From NCBI RefSeq assembly GCF_036429475.1, contig NZ_CP144125.1, positions 682,001 through 746,000 on the forward strand: 64,000 bases of DNA, in the 5' to 3' direction. This document shows, one piece after another, positions 52,281-54,824 of the stretch (positions are counted from its first letter, which is position 1; the number at the start of each line of letters is the position of its first letter). The notes beneath the pieces are model-generated. The model did no database searches. It was not told the origin of the DNA and worked only from the letters and a program-made list of their open reading frames with translations. A program made the position numbers and the translations under genes. The stretch is from Halalkalicoccus sp. CGA53. GTDB taxonomy: Archaea > Halobacteriota > Halobacteria > Halobacteriales > Halalkalicoccaceae.

Positions 52281-52498
52281 GCGATCACCTCGTCCCGCCG
52301 CGATCACACGAGGACGGGTTCGCGAATAAAGGCTCGCTGAACGGGTTTTCGGTAGCGACGCTGACCGGACGTGGACCCGCGCCGGCCGGTGTTCGAGGGG
52401 TCGTCGAGCGCAGCCCATCGCGACCGGTACGAGCCCGGTTCCGACGGCGATCACGCGGAACCGGAACCCGTTTGCCGCCCCACATGGCAGTACGACAC

Positions 52499-53584
52499 AT
52501 GGACCCGCGCATCCGCGAACACGCAGGCGTGATCGCCGAGCACTCGGTCGATCTCGGTGCTGGGGACGACGTCGTCATCGCCGCACACCCGGTCGCCTCG
52601 GACCTCGCCGTCGCGCTCCACGAGGTCTGTGGCGACGTCGGGGCGAACCCGGTCTACCTGAGCGGCGACGACCGGGCGAACCGGGCGTATCTCAGGGCTT
52701 CGGAGGGGGAGTTCGAGACGCCCGAGCACCAGCGGGCGCTCACGGAGGCGGCGGACGTCTTCGTCTTCGTTCGAGCCAACGAGAACGTCACCGAGACGAG
52801 CGACGTCGACCCCGCGATCAACGCGGCGTACTCGCGCGCACAGCAGCCGATCAGGCGAGAACGCCTCTCGAAACGCTGGTGTCTCACGGGGTTTCCAGCG
52901 TCCGCGAACGCCCAGCTCGCCGGAATGAGCACCGAGAGCTACGAGAACTTCGTCTGGGACGCCGTCAACAAGGACTGGGACGCCCAGCGCGAGCATCAGG
53001 AACGGATGGTCGAGATCCTCGACCCGGCAGACGAGGTTTGGATCAGATCGGGAGCGGAGACGGACATCCGGATGAGCGTCGCCGGCAACCGGACGATCAA
53101 CGACTACGGCGAGAAGAACCTCCCCGGAGGCGAGGTGTTCACCGCACCGGTGAGAGAGAGCGTCGAGGGGTCGGTCCACTTCGACAAGCCGCTCTACCAG
53201 CAGGGCCGAGAGATCACGGACGTCCGCCTCGAGTTCGAGGATGGGAGGGTGATCGCCCACAGCGCCGCGAAGAACGAGGACGTGCTCGCGGAGATCCTGG
53301 AGACCGACGACGGCGCACGGTATCTCGGCGAGCTCGGAATCGGGATGAACCGCGAGATCGACCGGTTCACCTACAACATGCTCTTCGACGAGAAGATGGG
53401 CGACACCGTCCACATGGCCGTCGGGATGGCCTACGACGAGTGCGTCGGCGAGGGGAACGCCGTGAACGAGAGCGCGACCCACGTCGACATGATCGTCGAC
53501 ATGGCCGACGACTCGGCGATCGAGGTCGACGGCGAGGTCGTCCAGCGCGACGGCGTTTTCGTCTTCGAGGACGGCTTCGAGTAG
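52499..53584 (+). CDS. M29 family aminopeptidase
   Basis: 361 residues using the ATG at 52499 (MDPRIREHAGVIAEHSVDLG); an ATG 15 bp upstream is a weaker choice. Thermophilic metalloaminopeptidase family (AmpS/AmpT-like). Visible elements are GDDVVIAAHPVASDLAVALHEVCGDVGANP, then NLPGGEVFTAPVRESVEG, GELGIGMNREIDRFTYNMLFDEKMGDTVHMAVGMAYDE with likely metal ligands, and ESATHVDMIVDM. It removes N-terminal residues from peptides in the cytosol. It stands divergent from the MATE gene. Confidence 0.92.
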   Translation: MDPRIREHAGVIAEHSVDLGAGDDVVIAAHPVASDLAVALHEVCGDVGANPVYLSGDDRANRAYLRASEGEFETPEHQRALTEAADVFVFVRANENVTETSDVDPAINAAYSRAQQPIRRERLSKRWCLTGFPASANAQLAGMSTESYENFVWDAVNKDWDAQREHQERMVEILDPADEVWIRSGAETDIRMSVAGNRTINDYGEKNLPGGEVFTAPVRESVEGSVHFDKPLYQQGREITDVRLEFEDGRVIAHSAAKNEDVLAEILETDDGARYLGELGIGMNREIDRFTYNMLFDEKMGDTVHMAVGMAYDECVGEGNAVNESATHVDMIVDMADDSAIEVDGEVVQRDGVFVFEDGFE

Positions 53585-53736
53585 TACGAGGGTCGTCCCC
53601 GATCCCGGACGGTCGGGGTGGGCTCGCGCTCGGCGGTCGCCGACACCGGACGGGGCGGTCGAACGCGAACGTTGTTAACCCGGCCCCGGAAGATCGGCCG
53701 GAGTTACCAACGACGTACGTATAGATGGCAGGACGA

Positions 53737-53744
53737 GTTATTAC
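53737..53744 (+). promoter_or_regulatory. TATA-like element for the cysteine-rich mini-protein
   Basis: GTTATTAC is centred about 29 nt upstream of the ATG at 53770, matching the spacing of other leaderless promoters in this window. It supports the 27-codon frame being expressed. Confidence 0.5.
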
Positions 53745-53769: not shown

Positions 53770-53850
53770 ATGTCCGCTTGCTGTGACCCGGTCTGTACCT
53801 GTGACGACGTCTGTACGTGCGAGGACGACTGCGACTGCGCGTCCTGCTGA
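53770..53850 (+). CDS. 26-residue cysteine-rich protein, metallothionein-like
   Basis: ATG at 53770, TGA at 53848-53850. The peptide has nine Cys in 26 residues (positions 4, 5, 9, 11, 15, 17, 21, 23, 26) and six Asp/Glu. From residue 9 it consists of three hexads of the form C-x-C-x-x-x: CTCDDV, CTCEDD, CDCASC. CxC repeats with acidic spacers suggest thiolate binding of soft metals (Cu, Zn, Cd), as in metallothioneins. It is not the CPxCG zinc-finger type known from haloarchaeal mini-proteins. A promoter-like element precedes it. Too short for most gene finders; existence is an inference from composition and promoter. Confidence 0.6.
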   Translation: MSACCDPVCTCDDVCTCEDDCDCASC

Positions 53851-53965: not shown

Positions 53966-53974
53966 TTTTATTAT
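53966..53974 (+). promoter_or_regulatory. TATA box for the FkbM methyltransferase
   Basis: TTTTATTAT is centred 27 nt upstream of the ATG at 53997, a clear leaderless-type promoter that also favours this start over the ATG at 53993. Confidence 0.55.
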
Positions 53975-53996
53975 CGCGGTCGGTGATCCCACATGT

Positions 53997-54824
53997 ATGC
54001 TGTCGTGGAATCGGCCCGTCGAGATCTATCGCAGCGAAGGGGTGGTGGCCCTCGGTGCGAGGACGACGCGTCTCCTCGGGAACAGGCTCGCCGACGCCTA
54101 CTGGGTCGGCCGTCGATCACGTCCAATCACGGTCGCCGGCGTGACGGCGACGTTTCCGATCGACGGCTGGTACGAGTCGTACCGGCTCCGCCGATCGCTG
54201 TCGCTCGAGCGCCCGATGCTCCGTGACCTCCTGCGTTCGCTCGGCCCGGAGGACGTCTTCTACGACGTCGGGGCCCACGTCGGGCTCTACAGCTGTTTCG
54301 CCGCCCGCGTCGTCGGCGGGGACAGCGTCGTCGCGTTCGAACCCGACCCGGAGAACGTCGAGACGCTCTGTCGAAACCTCTCGTACAACGCGAGCGGGGC
54401 GAAGGTCCTCGACTGCGCGCTCGCGTCGGAGGGCGGGACGGTGGTGTTCGAGGGGGCCGACGGCCCGTTCCGGAGCCGCGGCTCGATCGTCGCGGACGGC
54501 GGGCCGAACGCGACCGTCGTCGAGCAGCGAGCGGGCGACGCGCTCGTCGCAGCGGGCGAGATCCCGCCACCGACGGTGCTCAAGATCGACGTCGAGGGTG
54601 CGGAGTCGCTCGTCATCGACGGACTCTCGGGGTCGCTCGCCGACGACCGCTGTCGGCTCGTCTACTGCGAACTCCACCGCGAGAGCGACCGACGCCCTTC
54701 GGCCGAGGACTGTGGATCGACCCCGGCGGAGGTGACCTCACGGCTCCGCTCGCTCGGCTTCGAGACGGAGGTGCTCTGCGACCGGAGCGCGGAACTGCTG
54801 GTGAAGGCCGAGCGACTGGGGTGA
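53997..54824 (+). CDS. FkbM-family methyltransferase
   Basis: 275 residues from ATG at 53997 (MLSWNRPVEIYRSEG). SAM motif: FYDVGAHVGLYSCFAARVV (about 87-105) with the acidic residue in VVAFEPDPENVETL; the FkbM signature is VLKIDVEGAESLVIDGL (about 195-211). Family members O-methylate sugars or other small molecules, in haloarchaea often in polysaccharide or glycan clusters. No glycosyltransferase is adjacent, so the substrate is unknown. Its stop codon is part of a 16-bp palindrome shared with the converging gene. Confidence 0.88.
   Translation: MLSWNRPVEIYRSEGVVALGARTTRLLGNRLADAYWVGRRSRPITVAGVTATFPIDGWYESYRLRRSLSLERPMLRDLLRSLGPEDVFYDVGAHVGLYSCFAARVVGGDSVVAFEPDPENVETLCRNLSYNASGAKVLDCALASEGGTVVFEGADGPFRSRGSIVADGGPNATVVEQRAGDALVAAGEIPPPTVLKIDVEGAESLVIDGLSGSLADDRCRLVYCELHRESDRRPSAEDCGSTPAEVTSRLRSLGFETEVLCDRSAELLVKAERLG

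Follow-up and report, generated by a model that had tools for sequence, protein, structure and literature searches.

A candidate metallothionein-like gene of 26 codons shared by three haloarchaeal genera

The locus and its product

Within a 64-kb stretch of haloarchaeal DNA (the window), a very small gene lies between the genes for an M29-family aminopeptidase and an FkbM-type methyltransferase, the latter co-directional with it and 146 nt downstream (Table 1). The original prediction of a 26-residue frame with nine Cys, CxC pairs recurring with a period of six, and acidic residues between these pairs is borne out by translation of 53770-53850. Cys accounts for 9 of the 26 residues of the product, MSACCDPVCTCDDVCTCEDDCDCASC (positions 4, 5, 9, 11, 15, 17, 21, 23 and 26), and the CxC pairs at 9/11, 15/17 and 21/23 follow one another at exactly six residues, accompanied by a CC doublet near the N-terminus and by a terminal Cys. 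Seven residues are acidic: five lie between the CxC pairs (as DD and EDD), one follows Cys5, and one stands within the last CxC. With a mass of 2.71 kDa, the peptide is devoid of His, of aromatic residues (0 F/W/Y/H) and of basic residues, and it possesses neither a signal peptide nor a hydrophobic core; the zero aromatic count applies to the window peptide, whereas residue 2 is Phe in the copy of one relative, G411. At the DNA level, an 18-bp tandem period extends over about two copies, which suggests that the gene may have grown through duplication of a six-codon unit.

Table 1. Features in and around the peptide gene, with related regulator genes in Natronorubrum
Feature	Position	Strand	Remarks
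M29-family aminopeptidase gene	52472..53584	+	upstream neighbour; PF02073, E=3e-65; syntenic marker outside the unit
GTTGTTAAC	53671..53679	+	incomplete inverted counterpart of TTACCAAC; perhaps a regulator half-site; weak, identified by eye
Conserved block TTACCAACGA	53704..53713	+	some 66 nt before the ATG; perhaps a regulator site
Conserved block GATGGCAGGACGA	53724..53736	+	directly upstream of the TATA-like element; putative BRE/promoter context
TATA-like TTATTA	53738..53743	+	centred near -29 from the ATG; putative function
Peptide gene	53770..53850	+	26 codons and TGA stop; product MSACCDPVCTCDDVCTCEDDCDCASC
TATA-like TTTTATTATC	53966-53975	+	FkbM methyltransferase gene; own promoter in G000, G008, G009 and G007
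FkbM-type methyltransferase gene	53997..54824	+	downstream neighbour outside the unit; PF05050, E=1.9e-15
NikR-type regulator genes near the peptide gene	L269:10701-11267; L271:10793-11314; and the frame ending L270:8921		Natronorubrum

Distribution, selection and promoter

Copies of the peptide gene were found in eight genomes belonging to three haloarchaeal genera and two families. Among the ten Halalkalicoccaceae genomes searched, each of the three from the window's own genus carries the gene, as do two of the seven from the sister genus Halalkalicoccus. One that lacks it, G001, is Halalkalicoccus jeotgali B3, identified by a 12-kb piece with a 100% match to the plasmid of that strain; this places the family as Halalkalicoccaceae and the window in a sister genus of Halalkalicoccus. 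Two further carriers, both from a single distant genus that is probably Natronorubrum, came from a class-wide search of 391 genomes, with which a profile search agrees, and a search of the whole Natronorubrum family (125 genomes) contributed one further carrier, bringing Natronorubrum to 3 of 10 and yielding none in the rest of that family. Among 295 genomes sampled from the phylum, the window's own was the sole carrier found. When the genome and viral contigs of the entire collection were scanned for DNA encoding an eight-Cys pattern, only low-complexity or repeat-like frames were returned, the sole Halobacterium match included; a class-wide search with a seven-Cys pattern recovered true members only in genera already known, and searches of viral, phage and plasmid families with the peptide gave no match. 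Cys-pattern DNA searches are swamped by a well conserved stretch, TGCATCTGCTGCATCTGCTG..., which occurs in dozens of haloarchaeal genomes (e.g. L331-L340), is Met/Gln-rich on its reverse strand, and probably represents one conserved protein.

The eight copies conform to the consensus M-x-A-C-C-[DE]-P-x-C-x-C-x3-C-T-C-x2-D-C-x-C-x2-C, apart from the absence of residue 2 in the G004 copy. All nine Cys and their spacings are invariant in 8/8 orthologues, and the Cys codons alternate between TGC and TGT without a Cys ever being lost. The G007 and G004 copies differ by nine changes, eight of them synonymous (P=1.5e-5 for randomly placed changes), and the G124 and G273 copies by 13, of which 9 are synonymous (P=7e-5); pairs within the window's own genus follow the same trend more weakly (P=0.03-0.05). 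This codon-level pattern argues that the gene is under purifying selection. The original prediction had proposed that a functional gene would keep its Cys pattern in relatives with a predominance of synonymous changes, and that stops or frameshifts there would speak against it; the former was found, and none of the eight members is disrupted within the frame. An in-frame extension to 41 aa, starting from ATG 53725, was considered and rejected, since G009 and G007 interrupt it with an in-frame TAG and the sequence before 53770 diverges; with the extension broken in relatives, the start is assigned to ATG 53770.

Upstream of the gene, the TATA-like element that had been placed about 29 nt from the start was confirmed as TTATTA at -32 to -27. 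The five Halalkalicoccaceae copies all have a TTAT that begins at -32, within the conserved context GCAG-nnnGA-nTTAT; in the three Natronorubrum copies, which have CAGTTATGC in common, it begins at -36 to -38. Such spacing between the TATA element and the ATG fits the leaderless or nearly leaderless transcripts of haloarchaea, and it suggests a transcript of that kind here; the gene would accordingly appear to have its own leaderless-type promoter. A scan of the region for sigma-70 promoters, sites that are not relevant to archaea, was empty. In the block directly upstream of the TATA-like element, GCAG and GA are invariant in five genomes and the flanking non-coding sequence diverges, and the block around -66 reads TTAC(C/T)AA, its TTA and the following A's being likewise invariant in five genomes. 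Across 53671-53713, GTTGTTAA and TTACCAAC, both 5' of the TATA element, are imperfect inverted repeats of each other and are partly conserved across the Halalkalicoccaceae. In Natronorubrum, a perfect 15-base palindrome, TGGTACACTGTACCA, stands directly 5' of the peptide ATG in G124 (L269) and G411 (L271) and is absent in G273; lying at the expected transcription start, it is a possible operator of a metal regulator.

The surroundings of the gene differ between the two families. Throughout the Halalkalicoccaceae, the peptide gene comes after the M29 aminopeptidase gene, itself found in 10/10 genomes of the family. In G000, G009 and G007 it is bounded on the other side by the FkbM methyltransferase gene, which also lies directly downstream in G008, where the contig starts just upstream of the peptide gene. 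The same aminopeptidase-FkbM interval exists without the peptide gene in G003 and G005, and in G001 and G002 a different sequence follows the aminopeptidase gene. A second M29 aminopeptidase paralogue (G000:C2:254257-255348, 51% identity to 52472-53584) occurs elsewhere in the genome, as in most relatives. In Natronorubrum, the peptide gene is situated between genes for a NikR-type regulator (RHH plus NikR_C, the latter with E=4e-22) and a cupin; the regulator gene adjoins it in G273, and a divergent phosphoesterase gene intervenes in G124 and G411. Upstream of the same cupin gene, 7 of the 10 Natronorubrum genomes have no peptide gene, and where the flanks of these are legible, the regulator gene runs directly to the cupin gene. 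In the window's own genus the peptide gene has no adjacent gene for metal transport or metal regulation, and no neighbour in the window's own genome suggests metal handling, the NikR-type flank being found only in Natronorubrum; no partner or downstream gene is conserved across the carriers. It occurs at two unrelated locations, and one and the same site has it in some genomes and lacks it in others, which indicates a single-gene unit that was transferred or repeatedly lost; its patchy distribution shows that it is dispensable. The gene is shown to be protein-coding from ATG 53770, with nine Cys fixed in three genera, and to be gained or lost as one gene.

Likeness to known metallothioneins

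The peptide displays several of the features by which the metallothionein class is recognized: a low mass with a very high Cys content, CxC and CC motifs conserved in position, and, for the window peptide, the lack of aromatic residues and His. Its nine Cys, zero His, zero aromatic and seven acidic residues fit the compositional hallmarks of metallothioneins. In the beta domain of mammalian metallothioneins, about 30 residues contain nine Cys, predominantly as CxC, and form a cluster with three divalent metals. While the haloarchaeal peptide is alike in its nine Cys and the prevalence of CxC, the beta domain differs in its spacing (CxC-x5-CxC-x3-CxC-x2-CxC-x2-C), is Lys-rich, and forms part of a two-domain protein.

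Neither Pfam nor NCBIfam matched the peptide up to E=10, models of known bacterial metallothioneins included, although such silence means little, since short families are poorly covered and the Neurospora crassa metallothionein also has no Pfam match. When a profile of the haloarchaeal copies was compared with all PDB sequences, the sole match up to E=10 was the N. crassa copper metallothionein 1T2Y, at a nonsignificant E=7.9 and over an alignment spanning CxC...CxC-x3-CxC-x2-C; a likeness of this order would be expected for any CxC-rich peptide and provides no evidence of common descent. The fungal family 8 Cu-metallothioneins (N. crassa MT 1T2Y, Agaricus bisporus MT and the 7-Cys units of Tremella and Cryptococcus) are similar in their 25-26 aa, CxC-based design and freedom from aromatics, and their C-terminal spacing, CxC-x3-CxC-x2-C, is identical to that of the haloarchaeal peptide (PMC4755600). 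Copper is bound by fungal Cu-thioneins that are 26 residues long and have their 7 Cys arranged as CXC-X5-CXC-X3-CXC-X2-C (PMC4755600). In contrast, the haloarchaeal peptide has nine Cys instead of seven, an N-terminal CC-x3-CxC-x3 in place of CxC-x5, a strongly acidic character where family 8 has Gly/Ser/Lys, and an archaeal host. Set against the family 8 pattern X2-[CXC]-X5-[CXC]-X3-[CXC]-X2-C-X3, it reads CC-x3-CxC-x3-CxC-x3-CxC-x2-C, so that only the last five Cys share the spacing. As the similarity is not significant, convergence is likely. The peptide would equal the smallest fungal metallothioneins in length and exceed them in Cys content.

Among prokaryotic proteins, the bacterial SmtA/BmtA and MymT are likewise small, Cys-rich and metal-sequestering, and MymT was also a formerly unannotated small frame (PMC7558416); however, SmtA is longer and has a zinc-finger fold, and MymT has a mass of 4.9 kDa as opposed to 2.7 kDa for the haloarchaeal peptide. 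The haloarchaeal C(P)XCG zinc-finger micro-proteins are similarly very small, Cys-containing and predicted to bind metal (PMC11241148), but they carry two such motifs with four Cys forming one site, whereas the peptide combines nine Cys with CxC pairs. As originally claimed, the peptide falls outside that group: CPxCG is absent from 8/8 orthologues, and the motifs that never vary among them are CC and CxC. Structure predictors are unreliable on Cys-metal sites (PMC11241148). The peptide was not placed in a named metallothionein family because it departs from the family-defining patterns tested, and it appears, within the reach of the searches, not to be homologous to any known family.

Competing readings and the proposed metal-thiolate peptide

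A Cys-rich frame of this kind had been judged very unlikely to arise by chance, and the simulations, the shuffles and the conservation in relatives agree. Elsewhere in the 64-kb window, 23-residue open stretches in the six frames contain at most four Cys; in 60 simulated 64-kb windows matched in dinucleotide content, the maximum was six per 23-residue open stretch; and the 9-Cys spacing pattern, which occurs once in the window, appeared in none of 100 shuffles. The 18-bp period in the gene, and the finding that haloarchaeal Cys-pattern matches elsewhere are CTG/CAT repeats, could be cited in favor of a chance open frame or a tandem repeat without a product. Yet selection at the codon level, Cys residues that stay invariant across three genera although their codons diverge, and a conserved start, stop and promoter refute this reading, to which we attach practically no credence. 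Scarcely more credible is a leader peptide whose Cys codons would place the next gene under the control of cysteine supply, as the short, Cys-rich frame and the co-directional gene 146 nt downstream might suggest. The genes downstream vary (an FkbM methyltransferase in four genomes, a cupin in three) rather than forming a conserved co-directional target, and they carry TATA elements of their own; in G004 the next gene is convergent, leaving nothing for a leader peptide to attenuate. Additionally, the region of the peptide gene contains no terminator-like hairpin or Rfam match, and the acidic and Pro residues between the Cys are conserved although attenuation does not require them, such that this reading is largely refuted already. 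The small size, Cys content and sporadic distribution would also suit the precursor of a modified or secreted peptide, whether lanthipeptide-like, halocin-like or otherwise Cys-rich. We regard such a precursor as very improbable: the frame begins only three residues ahead of the first Cys and has no leader or signal sequence, no conserved modification or export genes lie alongside, and neighbours differ between clades. The lack of a conserved partner or downstream gene argues against both a leader peptide and a modified-peptide cluster.

Finally, the peptide may be a redox- or zinc-buffering molecule, its CxC dithiols acting chiefly to store thiols or to provide a metal-handover scaffold for one partner protein, rather than a detoxifying metallothionein. 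In favour of this function, CxC pairs can be redox-active, metal-resistance genes are absent beside the gene in the window's own genus, and the carriers belong to Halalkalicoccus, its sister genus and Natronorubrum, of which Natronorubrum and some Halalkalicoccus species are haloalkaliphiles. However, nine Cys at strictly fixed spacing, including the CC doublet and the final CxC-x2-C, exceed what dithiol redox chemistry would need, and we consider this function unlikely.

We judge it probable, at roughly 0.7, that the locus is a true gene, transcribed on its own, whose product is a metallothionein-like peptide of 26 residues residing in the cytosol. A metallothionein remains the best available reading of the product, and the earlier interpretation is in this respect partly supported; the evidence is best read as a very small metal-thiolate peptide of metallothionein-like kind, convergent in origin, that would bind metal and be induced. 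The NikR-type regulator gene near the Natronorubrum copies speaks for this reading; the lack of adjacent metal-transport or metal-regulator genes in the window's own genus and the patchy distribution speak against it. Lacking a signal peptide, aromatics, His and a hydrophobic core, the apo-peptide would be expected to stay unfolded in the absence of metal. Once metal is bound, the nine thiolates of the CC and CxC pairs would enclose a small metal-thiolate cluster, which might accommodate about three divalent ions (Zn/Cd, like the mammalian beta domain) or about five or six Cu(I) (like the fungal Cu-thioneins), with Cu(I) slightly favoured because the tail, CxC-x3-CxC-x2-C, is fungal-like. The Asp and Glu residues may keep both apo and loaded forms soluble in the high intracellular KCl, and the peptide may buffer or detoxify soft metals, e.g. 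copper or zinc.

Textbooks describe metallothioneins from eukaryotes and from some bacteria. In Haloferax mediterranei, a genome search directed at copper genes reported no metallothionein (PMC9240420); in the open-access papers searched, the phrase 'archaeal metallothionein' is absent and no archaeal metallothionein was found, though earlier reports elsewhere are possible. The peptide may represent the first metallothionein family to be genetically encoded in Archaea, one of convergent origin with 26 residues and nine Cys, whose gene travels alone, with a promoter of its own, from one haloarchaeal genus to another; in our estimation this is an evenly balanced question. Genes of this size are often missed in annotation, and the sequence evidence shows a real, previously overlooked gene in a salt-loving archaeon, metallothionein-like by composition and conservation. 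If this reading is true, the smallest possible metal-cluster peptide would have arisen independently in a third domain, in haloalkaliphiles, in the form of a minimal acidic metal binder that must function at molar salt.
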